The position numbers were made by a program, and so were the translations under genes. 45,325 bases of DNA, taken from Candidatus Zhuqueibacterota bacterium. Lineage in GTDB: Bacteria; Zhuqueibacterota; Zhuqueibacteria; Oceanimicrobiales; Oceanimicrobiaceae. Of the stretch, positions 28,885-45,325 are shown one piece after another. Location of the stretch: NCBI GenBank assembly GCA_029262005.1, contig JAJDAG010000139.1, positions 1 through 45,325 on the forward strand, read 5' to 3'. The notes below the pieces were generated by a model. That model was not told the origin of the DNA. It did no database searches and saw only the letters and a program-made list of their open reading frames with translations. Numbering within the stretch: the first letter of the stretch is position 1; each line of letters begins with the position of its first letter.

Positions 28885-28932
28885 AAAGTGAGATCGCCTG
28901 CAAATAAAATATCAAATGACTTTACAACGATT

Positions 28933-31932
28933 ATGATGCAAACGCCTCATCTACAAAAACTAAAGTGGCTGGCGCTCCTTTTTGTGCTAGGTTGCACGAA
29001 CAACGATTCGGCCCATAAATTAAGTGAGATTCAACGGCAAATTTACGCTCAGCCTGAGATAACGCAGGAAGAAATTGTTGCCAAAATTGAGCATTTTTAT
29101 CGATCGCTGACGGTCACTGATTCTATTCGTCAGAGTGTGGAACAGGCGGTTGCGCGCCAACTCGCGACTGCCCCCTCCCGCCTTGGGCCGTTTTCAGAAA
29201 AAATCCGGGACGAGCAGAATCCATATCGCTTGGAAAACATTTTACAAGAAATCATTCGGGCGGGGCTAATGGCCCGGGCTCTGTTGAATGTTGACTTGTC
29301 CGACAGTCTCTTTGTTTTGGCTGTAAATGTAGCACACGAGGTTGACTCAACTACCGCGACAGCTTACTGGGTTGGCTTTGTCTCGCAAAGCCAGAAGTTC
29401 ACAACGGACGATGTGCATAACTGGCTGATGGTATCTGTGGCGCGAGATTCATGCTATAAATATCATGGTGATGATACAAATTGGCCGCTTGCTGAACAAT
29501 ACGCTGCCCTTGCTCTGCAGCGTCTGGAAAAAACACCTGACACCAGAATTAAATTGGATGTCATGTTTAGACTTCAGTATATCCTGCGTGAATTCTACAG
29601 CTATTTCCCACTTACAATCGCAATATCCAAATATTATTATCAAATGGCCCAAGAAAACGGCTATCACTTGCGGGCTGTTGCTATGGCGTTCCAGGAAGCG
29701 GATGCATCAAGAGAAGACGGCAAAATTCAGGAAGCTTTAGACTTACTCAAATCCATTATTAAAGAGACGAACAAGTACAATCGCATTTCCGATATGGAGT
29801 GGTTCAAAAGAATGGCGCTGCTTCGCTTGGCAGAGTGCTACCGGGCTCTTGGCGATTATCAAAATGCTAAATCTGCCTGTGCAGAGCTCGAACAGCTAGC
29901 CCCGGACCAGAGAAAACTGACTTTACTACATATTGTAAAAGGAAGGATTCATCAAAACTTAGGTGAATACGAACAGGCTCATGCAGAATACGATGCCGGT
30001 CTAAGCGTGGCCGATGCGCAGGGTGACATGGTCAACATGAGCGCTCTGTACACGAACCTCGGTACAATGTATGAATTCCTCACAGAGTATGACAGAGCGC
30101 AGGATTATTTTATTAAGTCCGAAGCTTTACTCAAAAGCCCTTTATTGAGCCGGAATGACAGAGTACGGCTTATACTAAATTCCGCTGAGATCGCTGCCTT
30201 GCAAGGCAAGGAAGAACAATTTGACCAGGCGATTCGAGAGGCAAACGAGCTCATGACATCAGCCAATTTGCCGTTTAGGCTGGCGCAATATTATAGGACC
30301 ATTGGAGCGTTAAATTTCCAACTTGGACGCAATGAGGAAGCATTGGAATACCTCAAAAAAGCGATAGGCATTTTTCGATCTGAGGGGTTGGTGCCGAAGT
30401 TTCTCGGAACAACAGTGGACATCGTCAAATGTCTTATGGCACTATCCGAATATTCAAAAGCAATGCAGGCATTGGAAGAATTAAGAAATACGGCAAACAA
30501 AGTTAGCGAGCCGGAGCGGGTCATCGATGCCCTTGCCTTGGAAGCGGAGATTGCCTTTCGCCTCGGCGACCGGGCGAAAGCAGTGGTTTTATCAAACCAG
30601 GTCTGTCAGCATGTTCAAAAAGTCATGGATAATATCCAAGACGAAGCGAAACGTATTTTTTATCATCAAAAGAATTACAAATATCTGAAGAACAGTGTTT
30701 TTTATGGGATTCAAAACAACACCCTTAATTTATCCCTGCAAAAACTAAATCAGATCAAATCAATAACGTTACCTTCCACAACATTAAAAAGGCCAGAATA
30801 TCTATCCTCGGCCAATGGCTCTGACTCGCTTCCTCCTGTCCAATCATTCCTGGATTCAACGAATTGTATCATTGATTATATTGTCACGCACGATTCGTTA
30901 TTTGCAGTGGTTTTTTCCGGTCAAAAGTCGAAGTCGGTTATTTTGAGGAAACATCTTCCGGAGCAGAAACTTGCATCCACGACCCGAGCCTATAAGATGC
31001 TGATAGAAAAAACGACAACGATATTCGAAAACTTCAACGTGAGCAACGCACAGGAGCATTATAGAAAAACGACTCAACAGGCGCATGAATTGTATTCCAT
31101 GTTGTTTGGCTGGCCTGCACTGGACTCGTTGGTGCAAGAAAGTGAAATGATGTATATTGTGCCGGATGAATATCTCTATGACTTGCCATTTGCAACACTG
31201 GTCGTCGATACCACAGAGTCCATAACTTATCTGGCCAATGAAACTGCCACAGTCATCCTCCCTGGCCATTCACTGGCGCCTAAACCGAAGATGCAAAGTA
31301 ATCCGCTTGACGGAAACGGCCTAATCAGTATGGATATTACCTTTGACAAAGCCGCCGAGTTGTTAGCTTTACTTAAGCAATTGTCCCCGGACTTAGAGGA
31401 ACTTTCGGTCAATTCACTTCAAGTCGCCAAAGCAGAGGCGATTGAACAGCTTCGCGTGGCGCGTGACTATTATTTTTTTCTTGGCCACGGTTTTGCCCAT
31501 GCGCAGAACCCGGATCTCTCCTACATTGAATTGTCTGTGACCTCGTCAGAGCAAAAGAAAAACATCATACAAATTTCGATGCCTGAATTCAGAGAGCATA
31601 AATTAGTATGGGACAATAAACCAACTATTCTGTTGCTAGGCTGTAAAACCGCGACGGGAAAATCGTACATGGGTTCAGGCACCCTTGGGTTCCAACGGGG
31701 ATTATTGTCTATGGGGGCTGGAACCGTAGTCGGGACGCTTTGGGACATCGATTCGAATCATGCGATTCCCGACATGGCAGAAGTGCTAAAAAATTGGCAG
31801 AAAAACGGTAATTTCACCAGAGCTTTGCAGCAGAGCCAAATAAGGAAGATCGAGCAAATGCGCAAAGATCCTGTTTTCAAGCAGCCCCACCCTTATTTCT
31901 GGGGTGGATTTATGGTAACCTCGGTTATCTAA
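28933..31932 (+). CDS. TPR-CHAT domain lipoprotein (caspase-like)
   Basis: About 999 aa. The start chosen is ATG 28933, because it gives a normal lipoprotein signal ending in 'FVLGC'. A GTG at 28888, 3 bases after the previous stop, would give a long leader. Residues ~150-600 are TPR helices ('IGALNFQLGRNEEALEYLKKA', 'YTNLGTMYEFLTEYDRAQDYF', 'RLAECYRALGDYQNAKSAC'). The C-terminal ~330 residues are a CHAT domain with the His-Cys dyad: His852 in 'YFFLGHGFAH' and Cys904 in 'TILLLGCKTATG'. 'GAGTVVGTLWDIDS' and 'HPYFWGGFMV' complete the fold. CHAT domains are caspase-clan proteases. Lipidation suggests the protease faces the periplasm or outer membrane, which is unusual and inferred. Confidence 0.88.
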   Translation: MMQTPHLQKLKWLALLFVLGCTNNDSAHKLSEIQRQIYAQPEITQEEIVAKIEHFYRSLTVTDSIRQSVEQAVARQLATAPSRLGPFSEKIRDEQNPYRLENILQEIIRAGLMARALLNVDLSDSLFVLAVNVAHEVDSTTATAYWVGFVSQSQKFTTDDVHNWLMVSVARDSCYKYHGDDTNWPLAEQYAALALQRLEKTPDTRIKLDVMFRLQYILREFYSYFPLTIAISKYYYQMAQENGYHLRAVAMAFQEADASREDGKIQEALDLLKSIIKETNKYNRISDMEWFKRMALLRLAECYRALGDYQNAKSACAELEQLAPDQRKLTLLHIVKGRIHQNLGEYEQAHAEYDAGLSVADAQGDMVNMSALYTNLGTMYEFLTEYDRAQDYFIKSEALLKSPLLSRNDRVRLILNSAEIAALQGKEEQFDQAIREANELMTSANLPFRLAQYYRTIGALNFQLGRNEEALEYLKKAIGIFRSEGLVPKFLGTTVDIVKCLMALSEYSKAMQALEELRNTANKVSEPERVIDALALEAEIAFRLGDRAKAVVLSNQVCQHVQKVMDNIQDEAKRIFYHQKNYKYLKNSVFYGIQNNTLNLSLQKLNQIKSITLPSTTLKRPEYLSSANGSDSLPPVQSFLDSTNCIIDYIVTHDSLFAVVFSGQKSKSVILRKHLPEQKLASTTRAYKMLIEKTTTIFENFNVSNAQEHYRKTTQQAHELYSMLFGWPALDSLVQESEMMYIVPDEYLYDLPFATLVVDTTESITYLANETATVILPGHSLAPKPKMQSNPLDGNGLISMDITFDKAAELLALLKQLSPDLEELSVNSLQVAKAEAIEQLRVARDYYFFLGHGFAHAQNPDLSYIELSVTSSEQKKNIIQISMPEFREHKLVWDNKPTILLLGCKTATGKSYMGSGTLGFQRGLLSMGAGTVVGTLWDIDSNHAIPDMAEVLKNWQKNGNFTRALQQSQIRKIEQMRKDPVFKQPHPYFWGGFMVTSVI

Positions 31933-33765: not shown

Positions 33766-33951
33766 AAAAAAATCCCTGCAACCCGGGATGGGAAATCAAA
33801 GAACCGCGTCAAACACGGTGGGCACCGCCTGAACGTTTTTTGCTTCCACTATGTCCTGAGACGAGGCTTGCAATACACGGTCAGAGCTAAGCTCCCAATA
33901 TAAAGGTATTCGCTCTTTGATTAGCACCATGCCAAAATTACAGGGACTTGT
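33766..33951 (-). ncRNA. Candidate structured non-coding RNA, 6S-RNA-like
   Basis: About 186 nt on the minus strand, bounded by a sigma70-type promoter (33960-33988) and a run of seven U (33766-33772). The two ends pair: bases 33938-33948 with 33771-33781, 11 bp with two G-U pairs that exist only in the minus-strand RNA. Next inward, AATCAAAGA and its exact complement pair (33794-33802 with 33914-33922, plus GCG/CGC). A large internal loop follows, then a long apical helix (33829-33843 with 33870-33884, 12 of 15 paired). Closing stem, central bubble and apical arm in 180-200 nt is the plan of 6S RNA. The identity is inferred; a covariance model was not run. Confidence 0.55.
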
Positions 33952-33959
33952 GACACACG

Positions 33960-33988
33960 ATGTTAGCAAAATTCACAAACAAAGTCAA
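33960..33988 (-). promoter_or_regulatory. Sigma70-type promoter of the structured RNA
   Basis: On the minus strand: TTGACT (33983-33988), a 17-bp spacer, TAACAT (33960-33965). The predicted start near 33952 coincides with the 5' edge of the closing stem of the RNA, which supports both calls. Confidence 0.55.
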
Positions 33989-39260: not shown

Positions 39261-40775
39261 TCAAAGGGCTCTGAGAAATTCTACAGAATGACTTGCCAGG
39301 TTGGAAAGGGGTGCCCAATACAGACCAAGCACCAAAGTCGGGATTGCAAAGATCGCCAGCAAGGCAACGTAAAAAGGTGAAATAGAAATTTCAGCCGATT
39401 GTTCGTCTTCAGCCTGTTCGAAAAACATGACCTTCAGAATACGCGCATAGTAGTAAAGTGCAACGACACTGTTAAGTAATCCGACAACAGCAAGCCAATA
39501 AAACGACGGGCCCTTGGCAATAACCGCGGCGAAAAGATAGAATTTTCCGATAAACCCTGCCGTTGGTGGCAAACCGGTTAAGGAGAACAGAAAGACGCCC
39601 ATGGCGATTGCTGGAATTGGCGCGCGTCTGGCCATGCCTTTCCAATCGCTGATTCTCTCACTGCCAATTACATCCTGAAAAATAATGACAACAAGGAATG
39701 CCCCAAGATTCATTAAATAGTAGACCACAAGATAAAATATCGTTGCAAAAATACCATCATCGGACAGCAACAAAGTACCCATCATAATATAGCCGGCATG
39801 TGCTATACTTGAGTAAGCCAGCATGCGCTTGATATTTTCTTGCTGAATAGCGACAAGATTACCCAGAGTCATTGTAGCAACTGCAAGTACGGCAAGCAGC
39901 ATAGGCCAGTTAATGGCCGCAAGAGACAACCATTCCGTGGTACCGTTGCCACCCCCGGTTGCCAATGCAACGTTGAAAAAACGAATTAAAACTGCAAATC
40001 CAGCAGCTTTGGGACCCACCGACAAGAATGCAGTAATCGGTGTCGGCGCGCCTTCGTAGACATCAGGCGACCAAAAATGAAATGGTACGGCTGCTATTTT
40101 ATAACCAAAGCCCGCAAGCATAAACAAGACTGAAACCAGCAATGCTAATTCACTGGAGCCTTTGCCGGCTAGAGCAGGTCCGATTTCGTAAATACTGAGT
40201 GTGCCGGTTAAACCATAAAGAATTGAAATGCCATAAAGCATGAGCCCTGATGAGAATGCGCCATAAATCGCATACTTCAGGCCTGCTTCGCTGGATCTTT
40301 TGCGCGTCTTCAAATACGTTGCAAGAACAAAAGAAACAATGCTCACAAGCTCTATTGAGATGAATATTGTAACCATGTTTGTGGACGATGCCATTAAAAA
40401 CATGCCCAGGGTCAATGTCATCAACAATGTAAAGTATTCACCAACCGGTCTGCCGGAAAGTTCAACCGACCCAATCGACAAAAATACAACCATGATCGTC
40501 GAAGCCAAAAACAACAATTTAAAATACAATGAAAATGGATCCACCACTAACATATCATTAAAAATGGAGCGGCTTCCAAGTTCATATTGACATATTACAG
40601 AAACAAGTACAATAGCGGCGCCGATAAGCGCAATGATTGACATCCATGGAGAACGCTCTTTGCCCAAAAAGAGATCAGCCAGGATCAAAACCAGAACCAA
40701 CCCTGTCAGGAGCAATTCCGGAACAAAGTAGTTAAGGCTATTTAGGTTATTTTGTATTATAGTAGAATAATCCAT
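39261..40775 (-). CDS. nuoN: NADH-quinone oxidoreductase subunit N
   Basis: 504 aa with ~14 TM helices. It is one of the three antiporter-like proton channels of complex I. Family signs: 'ELVSIVSFVLATYLKTRKRSSEAGLKYAIYGAFSSGLMLYGISILYG' with the Glu and Lys of TM5 and TM7, 'AAVPFHFWSPDVYEGAPTPITAFLSVGPKAAGFAVLIR', 'NIKRMLAYSSIAHAGYIMMG' and 'LTGLPPTAGFIGKFYLF'. Last gene of the nuo run, 11 bp after nuoM. Length is normal. Confidence 0.96.
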   Translation of the reverse strand: MDYSTIIQNNLNSLNYFVPELLLTGLVLVLILADLFLGKERSPWMSIIALIGAAIVLVSVICQYELGSRSIFNDMLVVDPFSLYFKLLFLASTIMVVFLSIGSVELSGRPVGEYFTLLMTLTLGMFLMASSTNMVTIFISIELVSIVSFVLATYLKTRKRSSEAGLKYAIYGAFSSGLMLYGISILYGLTGTLSIYEIGPALAGKGSSELALLVSVLFMLAGFGYKIAAVPFHFWSPDVYEGAPTPITAFLSVGPKAAGFAVLIRFFNVALATGGGNGTTEWLSLAAINWPMLLAVLAVATMTLGNLVAIQQENIKRMLAYSSIAHAGYIMMGTLLLSDDGIFATIFYLVVYYLMNLGAFLVVIIFQDVIGSERISDWKGMARRAPIPAIAMGVFLFSLTGLPPTAGFIGKFYLFAAVIAKGPSFYWLAVVGLLNSVVALYYYARILKVMFFEQAEDEQSAEISISPFYVALLAIFAIPTLVLGLYWAPLSNLASHSVEFLRAL

Positions 40776-40786
40776 ACCAGGCTATT

Positions 40787-42355
40787 TTAATGGAGTCCTA
40801 ATAAAGTGGTGTCCGCAGCATTTACAACAGCCACAAGTTCATTTAGTGAGGTTCTCATAAGATCAAGCAGTGGCGCCGGATAAACTCCAAGTAAAATAAC
40901 AATCACTGCAATTGGGACAAGCGTAAATAGCTCACGACCATTGATCTCCGGCAAATCCGCATATTTGGGATTCAACTCACCGAGAAACATTCTTTGGAAA
41001 GTCCAGAGAAAGTAGCCGGCAGTGATAACGATGCCAAGAGTCGAGATAATGGTTATTAATCGCAGATCAAAGGCTTCTGAACCAAATGCACCAAGAAAGG
41101 AAAATGCTTCACTAATAAAACTTGAGAATCCGGGAAGGCCGAGACCGGCAAAAAATGCGATACTAACCAACGCAGTATAAATAGGCATTTGGTTTGCCAG
41201 ACCACCAAAACCTTCTATTTGCCGGTGGTGTGCACGGTCGTAAATAACACCTACCAACAGGAAGAGCATTGCAGTGCCTGTTCCATGATTGAACATCTGC
41301 ATAACTGCCCCATTCATCCCCATTGAAGTAAGGCCGGACATCCCTAACAGGACAATTCCCATGTGGCTGATACTGGAATATGCCACCAGTTTTTTCAAGT
41401 CCTTTTGCGCCATGGCGCAAAAAGCACCATACAGAATATTTATTAAGCCAAGGATGGCCATGCCATAGGCAAAATACTCCCACTTCATTGCATCAGGCAG
41501 CATTGGAAAGCTGATACGCAGCATCCCGTACGTCCCCATCTTCAATAGAACGCCGGCAAGAATCACACTGACTGCAGTCGGCGCTTCAACGTGTGCATCG
41601 GGCAACCAGGTGTGAAATGGAAAGACAGGTACTTTTATAGCAAAACCAAGGAAAAGTGCCGCATACATAAGCAATCGAATATTGAAATCATCAAGCACAC
41701 CAACATGATTGGCCTGATCCATTAAGTGCAGCATATTGAATGTGTGCCCACCGGTAACGGGATCTTGAACGTTGAAATAGAAAACCAGCATTGCTATTAG
41801 CATGAAGATGCTGCCAAAAAGCGTATACAGGAAAAATTTAATAGCGGCATAAGGGCCACCTCGAACCATACCATCCGGATCAGTCCTGGAAGGACTTCCC
41901 CAGATACCGATTAGGAAATACATTGGCAGGAGCATAACTTCCCAAAAAATGTAGAATAGAAAGAAGTCGAGAGCACAGAAAACACCCATCATGCCCGCAT
42001 CAAGCAAAAGAAACATGGCAAAATAACCCTTGACACTCTTCTCAATTCCCCACGAAGCAAAGATGCAGATGAAAGACAGAAAAGCCGTGAGCAGTACCAT
42101 CGGCACACTCAGGCCATCTATTCCCATAAAATACTCGATATTGAACGCCGGGATCCATTTAACCTGCTCCATAAATTGAAAACCGCTAGCAGCGGCATCA
42201 AAATTCATGTATATCCAGATAGCAAGCACCAATTGCAGACCGGTGAACACAGCGGCTATGCTCCTGACAAGATTCTTGCTTGTTTGCGGCACAAATAAAA
42301 TAGCCACAGCGGCGATAACCGGCAGGAAGGTAATCCATGTCAATACATTGTCCAT
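40787..42355 (-). CDS. nuoM: NADH-quinone oxidoreductase subunit M
   Basis: 522 aa from the ATG at 42355 (AAAGG upstream; a TTG three bases earlier is less likely). A multi-pass antiporter-like subunit of complex I: 'YFMGIDGLSVPMVLLTAFLSF', 'FYIFWEVMLLPMYFLIGIWG', 'KVPVFPFHTWLPDAHVEAPTAVSVILAGVLLKMGTYGMLR', 'DLKKLVAYSSISHMGIVLLGM', 'GLGLPGFSSFISEAFSF'. It lies 22 bp after nuoL. Confidence 0.96.
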   Translation of the reverse strand: MDNVLTWITFLPVIAAVAILFVPQTSKNLVRSIAAVFTGLQLVLAIWIYMNFDAAASGFQFMEQVKWIPAFNIEYFMGIDGLSVPMVLLTAFLSFICIFASWGIEKSVKGYFAMFLLLDAGMMGVFCALDFFLFYIFWEVMLLPMYFLIGIWGSPSRTDPDGMVRGGPYAAIKFFLYTLFGSIFMLIAMLVFYFNVQDPVTGGHTFNMLHLMDQANHVGVLDDFNIRLLMYAALFLGFAIKVPVFPFHTWLPDAHVEAPTAVSVILAGVLLKMGTYGMLRISFPMLPDAMKWEYFAYGMAILGLINILYGAFCAMAQKDLKKLVAYSSISHMGIVLLGMSGLTSMGMNGAVMQMFNHGTGTAMLFLLVGVIYDRAHHRQIEGFGGLANQMPIYTALVSIAFFAGLGLPGFSSFISEAFSFLGAFGSEAFDLRLITIISTLGIVITAGYFLWTFQRMFLGELNPKYADLPEINGRELFTLVPIAVIVILLGVYPAPLLDLMRTSLNELVAVVNAADTTLLGLH

Positions 42356-42377
42356 CAAACTGTACCTTTCTTAAAGC

Positions 42378-44357
42378 TTAGAATTGTTGAATCACAATAA
42401 TTGCAATAACAGCAAATAAAGCCATCAAAATATAATTTTGAATATTTCCCGTTTGCACGAGCCGCAAACGAGCGCCTGACCAGGCAATAACGGTTGCAAC
42501 ACCATTCACCAAACCATCTACACCACGCATATCAAAGGCACCATTTAGACGCGACAGCCCTACTGTCAGTTTTGCCGCACCATTTACAACACCGTCAATA
42601 ATTTTCGAATCAAAAACGGCAAGGAGTCGAGCTTTCCAAAGTGTGCCATTAACAAAAGTGGCTTGGTAGAATTCATCGAAATAGTACTTATTCCACAGAA
42701 GATTATAAATAGGTCTGAGTCGGCGTCCCCAGGTTTCTGCTGAAATCTTCTTCCAGTAATAAACTGTGGTGGCCAACAAAATCCCACTCGACGCTACAAT
42801 AACAGACGAAATCATAGCAATTATGTGTGCCGAATGGGCAACATCGTGTCCGCCTGAGTGTGGCACAGGCAAAACAGTCCCTGCATAAGAAGCAAGGTCA
42901 GGCTTTGCCAGCAGGTGTTCAACCCAGCCCCACCAAATTGTCCCAACCGAAAGCACAGCCAGGACAGAAAGCGGGATGGTCATTGTCATGGGTGATTCGT
43001 GGGCGTGACTGTACTTTTCTTTGTCACGAGGCTCCCCGGCAAAGGTCATGTATACAAGCCGCAACATGTAAAAAGCGGTGATACCAGCCGAAAGCAGGGT
43101 TACTACATAAATGCCCAGATGTGACGGATTCAACATGCCAAACTCAAGCGCAGATGCAAGAATTGCATCTTTACTCCAAAATCCGGAAAAAGGTGGCACC
43201 CCGGACAAAGACACAGTCCCTATTAGAAACGTCCAGAACGTGATGGGCATTTTTTTTCGTAAACCGCCCATGTCATCCATTTCCTGGGAATGAACAGCAT
43301 GAATAACGCTGCCAGAGCCGAGAAACAACAAAGCCTTGAAAAAGGCGTGTGTGGTCAAGTGGAAGAGACCCGCGGTGTAGCCTCCTGTTCCCAAACCAAC
43401 CATCATAAAACCCAATTGGCTGATAGTTGAGTATGCAAGGACGCGCTTAATATCTTTCTGAACTATGGCAATGGTAGCGGCCATAAAAGCCGTAATCACA
43501 CCTATGTAAGCGATAAAAAGAAGTGCCTCCGGAGTGAAAAGTACGTAGGCCCTGCCCACCATGTAGACGCCTGCTGCAACCATTGTGGCGGCGTGAATCA
43601 ATGCGCTAACAGGGGTTGGGCCTTCCATTGCATCCGGCAACCAAACATGCAACGGAAACTGCGCCGACTTACCGATAGCCCCCATAAATAGTAAAATACC
43701 GGCAACAGTGAGCATAGTCCCGGACAACTCACCGTTCGCAATGCCGGTAAATACTTCGTTGAAATTAAAAGTACCGAGTGTGGCAAACAAAATCATGATA
43801 CCAGCAAACATGCCGACATCACCGATACGATTGGTGATAAAAGCCTTTTTACCAGCATCTGCTGCTGAGTCCTTTTCAAACCAAAAACCAATCAGCAAAT
43901 AAGAACTGACACCCACTAGTTCCCAAAAGACATAGACACCAAAAAAATTATCTACCAGAATAAGACCTAACATTGAAAATGAAAACAATGACAGGTAGGC
44001 AAAATAACGACTATAGCGCGAATCGCCATGCATATATCCGATTGAATATAAATGCACGAGCGAACTGATCAAGGTTACAACAATCAACATAAACGCCGTC
44101 AAATTATCGACAAGCAGGCCAAAAGTGACTTGAATATCGCCGAAATTAATCCAGTCGTAGGTTTGTTGCGCGATTATATAATCGGGTTGGTAATTTACGA
44201 TGGCATCAACGAAAATAGGGACCGCGAGCAGAAAGGCGGCTATCATGGCCCCGGTAGACAACCAATCTCCTTGTCGAGGCAGACGTTTACCCACAAAGAT
44301 TTGAATGGTAAAAGCGAGAAAGGGTAGAAGAAGAATTAGTATGGCATTTGTAATCAT
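42378..44357 (-). CDS. nuoL: NADH-quinone oxidoreductase subunit L
   Basis: 659 aa, the usual length, with 15-16 TM helices and the long amphipathic lateral helix region near the C-terminus. Conserved blocks: 'VTLISSLVHLYSIGYMHGDSRYSRYFAYLSLFSFSMLGLI', 'FWELVGVSSYLLIGFWFEKDSAADAGKKAFITNRIGDVGMF', 'AQFPLHVWLPDAMEGPTPVSALIHAATMVAAGVYMVGR', 'DIKRVLAYSTISQLGFMMVGLGTGGYTAGLFHLTTHAFFKALLFLGSGSVIHA'. It couples quinone reduction to proton translocation. Confidence 0.97.
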   Translation of the reverse strand: MITNAILILLLPFLAFTIQIFVGKRLPRQGDWLSTGAMIAAFLLAVPIFVDAIVNYQPDYIIAQQTYDWINFGDIQVTFGLLVDNLTAFMLIVVTLISSLVHLYSIGYMHGDSRYSRYFAYLSLFSFSMLGLILVDNFFGVYVFWELVGVSSYLLIGFWFEKDSAADAGKKAFITNRIGDVGMFAGIMILFATLGTFNFNEVFTGIANGELSGTMLTVAGILLFMGAIGKSAQFPLHVWLPDAMEGPTPVSALIHAATMVAAGVYMVGRAYVLFTPEALLFIAYIGVITAFMAATIAIVQKDIKRVLAYSTISQLGFMMVGLGTGGYTAGLFHLTTHAFFKALLFLGSGSVIHAVHSQEMDDMGGLRKKMPITFWTFLIGTVSLSGVPPFSGFWSKDAILASALEFGMLNPSHLGIYVVTLLSAGITAFYMLRLVYMTFAGEPRDKEKYSHAHESPMTMTIPLSVLAVLSVGTIWWGWVEHLLAKPDLASYAGTVLPVPHSGGHDVAHSAHIIAMISSVIVASSGILLATTVYYWKKISAETWGRRLRPIYNLLWNKYYFDEFYQATFVNGTLWKARLLAVFDSKIIDGVVNGAAKLTVGLSRLNGAFDMRGVDGLVNGVATVIAWSGARLRLVQTGNIQNYILMALFAVIAIIVIQQF

Positions 44358-44387
44358 ATTATAAACAGTATTAATGTATGAGTCAGA

Positions 44388-44696
44388 CTAGTGAGCCAAA
44401 GAATCCGCGCTATCTATATTGATGGTCCGCAGCCGTTCATAAAGATTCAAGACAATGGCGAGAGCAACAGCCGCAGCGGCAGCCGCAGTTACAATGACAA
44501 ACAGAGCCATAACCTGGCCATCCAAATCAGTATCAATATATTTTGCAAAGGCCACAAAATTAATATTTGCAGCATTGAGAATTAATTCTACACCCATAAG
44601 TACAGTAACAGCATTTTTCTTTGAGATAACAGCAAGCAACCCCAAGGAAAACAACACTGCACTCACAAAAAGGAAATGGGACAAGCCAATGGTCAT
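44388..44696 (-). CDS. nuoK: NADH-quinone oxidoreductase subunit K
   Basis: 102 aa with three TM helices, as in all NuoK. The conserved membrane glutamates lie in 'LMGVELILNAANINFVAF', and a further one in the third helix region. It starts 4 bp after the nuoJ stop and ends 30 bp before nuoL. AGGA lies 8 bases before the ATG. Confidence 0.96.
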   Translation of the reverse strand: MTIGLSHFLFVSAVLFSLGLLAVISKKNAVTVLMGVELILNAANINFVAFAKYIDTDLDGQVMALFVIVTAAAAAAVALAIVLNLYERLRTINIDSADSLAH

Positions 44697-44700
44697 TTAG

Positions 44701-45192
44701 TTAATCCTTTCGCGCTATAAATGCCGCCCCAACAAGAGCGCCGAGAAGCAAAACAGAAGCGATTTCAAACGGTATTAGATAATCCGTCATCATCAAGACG
44801 CCAATCTTATTTGTTGTTGGCTCAAATTCGGAAACAGATTGCAGAGCCCATGGCGTTTTCATTATCATCCTAAACAATACTACTAAAACACCCGCCACCA
44901 CAATCATTGCCGGACCGAGCTGTTTTGCCCCGGTTCCAATATCCACACGCATTCCTTTTTGCGACAACATCACGCCAAACAGCAAAAGCACAAGAATACC
45001 ACCAACATAAATTAAAATCTGAACAATCGCCACAAAATCAGCAGCAAGCAACACATAAAGGCCCGCTACACCAGAAAGAGCAAACAACAATCCAACAGCA
45101 GAATAGACAACGTTGCGGGAAAACACCAATACCCCGGCGGAAGCTATTGTGAGTGCGGCAAATAGATAAAAAACAATATCGTAGAAATTCAT
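44701..45192 (-). CDS. nuoJ: NADH-quinone oxidoreductase subunit J
   Basis: 163 aa from ATG 45192, which has AAGGAAG 5 bases upstream. The frame extends further upstream but there it is nuoH DNA in another frame. Five TM helices; the family block is 'NVVYSAVGLLFALSGVAGLYVLLAADFVAIVQILIYVGGILVLLLFGVML'. The mid-helix bend region 'IYVGGI' is typical. Confidence 0.95.
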   Translation of the reverse strand: MNFYDIVFYLFAALTIASAGVLVFSRNVVYSAVGLLFALSGVAGLYVLLAADFVAIVQILIYVGGILVLLLFGVMLSQKGMRVDIGTGAKQLGPAMIVVAGVLVVLFRMIMKTPWALQSVSEFEPTTNKIGVLMMTDYLIPFEIASVLLLGALVGAAFIARKD

Positions 45193-45200
45193 GAGCTTCC

Positions 45201-45325
45201 TTACATTACCACCATCCAAAGGCCGACACCAATCATTGCGACAAAAGCGAATGGAGTCAGCACTTTCCATGATGTGTACATAAGTTGATCGACCCTAACT
45301 CTGGGAAGCGTCCATCTTAGCCACA
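45201..45325 (-). CDS. nuoH: NADH-quinone oxidoreductase subunit H, C-terminal end (runs off the right edge)
   Basis: The minus frame reads '[22 protein letters not shown]' then '[18 protein letters not shown]' and TAA at 45203-45201. 'RxTLPRxRxDQLMxxxWKxLxP' is the NuoH signature near the C-terminus. Only ~41 residues lie in the window. It precedes nuoJ by 8 bp. No nuoI gene lies between them, as it does in many bacteria, so nuoI, if present, lies elsewhere. Confidence 0.9.

Follow-up and report, generated by a model that had tools for sequence, protein, structure and literature searches.

A minus-strand unit in the window, i.e. the whole stretch of 45,325 nucleotides analysed, is almost certainly a gene for 6S RNA (ssrS), from a bacterium of candidate division KSB1, and most likely acts through the standard mechanism of open-promoter mimicry. 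This identity, proposed earlier from the length and plan of the RNA, is supported by a full-length covariance match above the gathering score, together with compensatory changes in relatives. Indeed, when the whole window was compared with Rfam at curated thresholds, 6S RNA was the single family matched (RF00013; 33949-33769, minus strand), the RNA covering positions 1-187 of the 187 of the model and scoring 47.4 bits versus a gathering score of 46.4, a margin of just 1 bit over a cut-off below which many relatives score. A permissive Rfam scan of the region around the RNA retrieved no families other than 6S at E-values up to 1. The transcript start may be situated a few nucleotides upstream of 33949, near 33951-33953. 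A second 6S copy was not found in this genome, which amounts to 5.77 Mb in 205 contigs with a completeness of 98.7%. A known family thus gains a new member in a candidate phylum; the system is not of a new kind. The features of the gene are listed in Table 1.

Table 1. Coordinates of the 6S RNA gene in the window and of its observed and predicted parts.
Feature	Position	Strand	Basis
Promoter: -35 TTGACT, 17-nt spacer, extended -10 TG-TAACAT	33960..33988	-	Sequence; CTTGAC[AT] conserved upstream in relatives
6S RNA (SsrS), ~181 nt	33769..33949	-	RF00013 match and covariation in 30 relatives
Closing stem, 5' strand, paired with 33770-33784	33935..33949	-	Fold and covariation
Helix adjoining the central bubble, 5' strand (AAUCAAAGAGC); predicted product-RNA template	33912..33922	-	Fold, covariation
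Predicted product-RNA start, U in GAGCGAAU	33908	-	Rfam consensus alignment; by inference from known 6S RNAs
Apical arm, with the GGGAGCUUAGCUCU / CAGGCGGUGCCC helix	33820..33897	-	Fold and alignment
3'-bubble hairpin (ACCGUGUUUGACGCGGU)	33803..33819	-	Fold; pairing of columns 155-157/171-173
Closing stem, 3' strand	33770..33784	-	Fold and covariation
U-rich 3' end, resembling a terminator in combination with the preceding stem	33766..33775	-	Sequence; T run conserved in relatives

The minus strand (33952-33766) was predicted to fold at -67.1 kcal/mol (z = -4.2), none of 200 shuffled sequences being as stable, versus -53.2 kcal/mol for the plus strand. All elements of the plan that had been claimed for this RNA, namely a closing stem, a large central loop or bubble and a long apical arm, were present in the predicted fold. 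The closing stem had been given a length of 11 bp; the stem itself was retrieved, but the minimum free energy (MFE) structure gave it 15 pairs, followed by an inner helix. Its well-conserved parts were the outer part and the helix adjoining the bubble, and no others.

Covariation was assessed in an alignment of 30 sequences that span the class and are 58-82% identical to the window RNA. The RNAalifold consensus comprised 32 pairs, 12 of which displayed double compensatory changes. Standard pairs occupied 96.6% of the pair cells versus 91.7% in shuffled alignments, and 47 double-change cells were observed versus 13.1 ± 3.8 after shuffling. None of the 500 shuffles matched the observed value on any of five covariation measures; this control is inflated by the relatedness of the sequences, and the robust measures, namely pair counts and pair-type counts, also exceeded all 500 shuffles. 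Sliding the partners by one to three columns lowered the pairing to 38-47%, a comparison biased toward the consensus structure, as the latter was derived from the same sequences. The same verdict was obtained when the MFE structure of the window RNA itself was tested against the alignment: double changes affected 31 pairs, and pairing amounted to 83.5%. Closing stem, central bubble and apical arm were all backed by covariation. In particular, both-sided changes occurred in four of the seven conserved closing-stem pairs, the covarying pairs of the bubble-adjoining helix involved alignment columns 35-38 with 179-182, and columns 155-157 and 171-173 of the 3'-bubble hairpin were paired in at least 28 of the 30 relatives. 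The apical arm contained 22 conserved pairs, with 96-100% of the cells paired. Furthermore, the conserved pairs comprised 102 G-U cells versus 11 A-C cells, an excess that assigns the RNA to the minus strand; the argument that the sequence-only reading had drawn from two wobble pairs of the closing stem hence holds generally.

Concerning expression, the promoter claimed for this unit (TTGACT-17-TAACAT) was confirmed at 33988-33960 on the minus strand, with a TG preceding the -10 element. A CTTGAC[A/T] motif was found at most 60 nt upstream of the 6S RNA in 25 of the 29 relatives with readable upstream DNA, the chance expectation being 0.6% per sequence. In the remaining four, all from one family of the class (loci L021, L022, L026 and L029), the promoter CTTGACTTTT was located approximately 35-45 nt farther upstream, i.e. 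~74-83 nt from the 6S start versus the usual ~40 nt. Promoter loss in this family, considered because these loci lacked a nearby -35 element, was therefore rejected; counting these four cases, the promoter was kept in 29/29 relatives. The farther-upstream position suggests, as judged from the sequence, a 5' leader of 35-45 nt in these four loci that would need processing. The poly-U tract claimed at the 3' edge was present as well, and the U-rich end is conserved in relatives. Sequence signals for both a promoter and a defined 3' end thus delimit an RNA of ~180-200 nt.

The edge of the presumed product-RNA template (GAGCGAAU; 33915-33908) is situated on the 5' side of the bubble, and its position is conserved across the relatives at the sequence level. 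Upon alignment to the Rfam consensus, GAGCGAAU corresponds to, and resembles, GAGCCGAU of E. coli. Product-RNA synthesis on E. coli 6S RNA starts at U44, the counterpart of which is U33908. By analogy, the product RNA is predicted to be AUUCGCUCUUUGAU, starting from U33908, and hence to begin with AUUCGCUC. The first base predicted for the product varies by family (alignment A1, columns 46-49), a template U in the family of the window genome giving an A, and a C in most other families giving a G. Columns 172-173 can pair with either columns 44-45 of the bubble-adjoining helix or columns 155-156 of the 3'-bubble hairpin; these alternatives are mutually exclusive and both are conserved in most sequences, so that the outer pairs of the hairpin compete with the helix. 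When the template was barred from pairing in silico, the hairpin lengthened from five to seven pairs. In this fold model, the hairpin growth corresponds to the switch known from E. coli-type 6S RNAs, combined with a small preformed hairpin like that of B. subtilis 6S-1 RNA.

Resemblance to E. coli-type 6S RNA (RF00013) concerns the length, the full-length covariance match, the succession of closing stem, central bubble and apical arm, the possession of an own sigma70-type promoter, the U-rich 3' end and the 3'-bubble hairpin. However, the KSB1 sequence has diverged from that type, as reflected in the narrow margin of its match, its gene is positioned head-to-head with nfeD/SPFH genes, and the hairpin, part of the switch described for E. 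coli-type release (PMC8876501), counts 7 bp, whereas the E. coli hairpin reportedly has 9 bp. Like B. subtilis 6S-1 RNA (PMC8876501), the KSB1 RNA is predicted to form a small 3'-bubble hairpin (5 bp, up to 7) even when free, and many KSB1 relatives carry GAGCCAAC, giving a predicted product GUUGG..., near the GUUCGG of B. subtilis 6S-1. In contrast with the latter, the product predicted for the window genome starts with A, and the additional hairpin pairs are formed at the expense of the bubble-adjoining helix, with its 3' strand, which is nearer to E. coli-type release. That KSB1 6S RNAs form a subtype of their own, characterised by a hybrid release switch and by a product starting with A in the family of the window genome and with G in most other families of the class, is a tentative proposal that is rather unlikely to hold. 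If true, the hybrid switch would consist of a short preformed 3'-bubble hairpin (Bacillus-like) that is lengthened by pairing with the 3' strand of the adjacent helix (E. coli-like).

6S RNA mimics an open promoter and binds the sigma70/sigmaA holoenzyme; transcription of a short product RNA by this enzyme, from the 5' edge of the bubble, sets the RNA free (PMC8876501, PMC10406553). By analogy, we infer that the KSB1 RNA binds the polymerase, serves as a template for product RNA and is regulated by growth phase. An RNA of ~185 nt would be transcribed from its own sigma70-type promoter, and its closing stem, bubble and apical arm would imitate the open promoter DNA recognised by the housekeeping RNA polymerase holoenzyme. 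The RNA would bind and sequester the primary-sigma holoenzyme, probably during slow or no growth. Upon recovery, the polymerase may transcribe the 5' bubble edge from U33908 onwards, yielding the short product RNA (approximately AUUCGCUCUUUGAU); this synthesis would unzip the bubble-adjoining helix, allowing the 3'-bubble hairpin to extend and the enzyme to be freed. A primary-sigma-like gene was found in the genome, scoring 260 bits versus the NCBIfam RpoD cut-off of 354. This gene (G000:C165:25504-26211, minus strand), the sole RpoD-like sigma gene found, has a short frame of 297 residues.

Alternatively, the RNA could bind RNA polymerase core without sigma, as does Ms1 of Actinobacteria, a rod-like RNA with the same central bubble that resembles 6S RNA in secondary structure and was discovered through 6S searches (PMC4191392). 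The partner is not deducible from structure alone; however, the KSB1 RNA matches the 6S family only, no other Rfam family reaching even E = 1, and two traits of true 6S RNAs, namely the template edge for product RNA and the hairpin switch, are conserved in it, making this possibility very improbable. The genes reported to surround Ms1 (HAD hydrolase / oxidoreductase; PMC9130861) were not encountered around the KSB1 gene, the neighbours of which are nfeD/SPFH genes and a thioesterase gene. An open frame exists on the strand of the RNA (44 codons from ATG 33930, or 57 from TTG 33969), but that it represents a short protein gene whose RNA folds by chance has a negligible probability, and the coding reading of the 44-codon frame was rejected: examined in the 30 relatives, this frame was not conserved, its ATG being in place in just two of them, and it was broken by stops and one- or two-base indels while the base pairs were kept.

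As to the gene neighbourhood, the 6S RNA gene is oriented head-to-head with a block of nfeD, SPFH/Band 7 and RNase H-like genes, beyond which a carboxypeptidase gene and NADH:quinone oxidoreductase-type genes follow. This nfeD-side gene order was preserved in three genomes of the same family, in which the 6S RNA, positioned by covariance matches, was located within ~0.3-1.5 kb upstream of nfeD. In the window, the RNA is followed on its own strand by a thioesterase gene (33456-32665), the ATG of which is ~310 nt from the 3' end of the RNA. Given this shared strand and distance, the RNA might serve the thioesterase gene as a 5' leader, riboswitch or attenuator; this is hardly conceivable, as the RNA has a U-rich, terminator-like 3' end and the thioesterase gene was not found at the three same-family loci with a preserved nfeD side. 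The 6S RNA therefore looks like an independent unit. Its adjoining genes differ from those classically linked to 6S RNA in Proteobacteria. The closest protein relatives of the window gene examined originated from the candidate division KSB1 metagenome-assembled genomes OFTM177, OFTM356 and OFTM153 (75-78% identity). Elsewhere in the window, a TPR protein of 1014 residues with a C-terminal CHAT domain is encoded (28888-31932, plus strand), and the NADH:quinone oxidoreductase/antiporter-type gene block (39261-45270, minus strand) is syntenic in three KSB1 genomes. Neither tRNA nor tmRNA genes were found in the window or near the 6S genes of relatives. A 22-base stretch of the apical arm had no exact match in viral contigs; a phage origin is hence not indicated, although an exact match is a narrow test.

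Among the 40 nearest relatives, 33 matched 6S RNA at E-values up to 10, 32 of them at E-values up to 0.02. Across the phylum, the Rfam 6S model matched 61 of the 82 genomes at an E-value of at most 0.001, and its cut-off was reached in just 28. A clade model, built from the 30 aligned sequences, matched 72/82 phylum genomes (42 of these 72 being outside the training set) and 46 of the 49 high-quality ones (completeness of 90% or more, contamination of 5% or less). The clade-model matches missed by the Rfam phylum search included genomes G012, G024, G026, G044, G062, G068, G076 and G081. Hence, 6S RNA occurs broadly, in 72/82 phylum genomes, and as one copy in the window genome. In G007, of the same family, two 6S matches were found (C207:6184-6383 and C97:2037-2233, both minus strand), scoring 153 and 169 bits, respectively, against the clade model and 24.5 and 37.2 bits against the Rfam model and reflecting either a second 6S paralogue or contamination (listed as 5%). 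A search of a literature library found no paper mentioning KSB1 together with 6S RNA. The earlier statement that 6S annotation is patchy in poorly studied phyla was borne out, as the Rfam model scores under its own cut-off in most KSB1 carriers. With the standard model reaching its cut-off in 28 of the 82 genomes versus 72 matched by the clade model, routine annotation will score 6S RNA as absent in many KSB1 bacteria. The present finding extends a near-universal transcription regulator to this little-studied candidate phylum.
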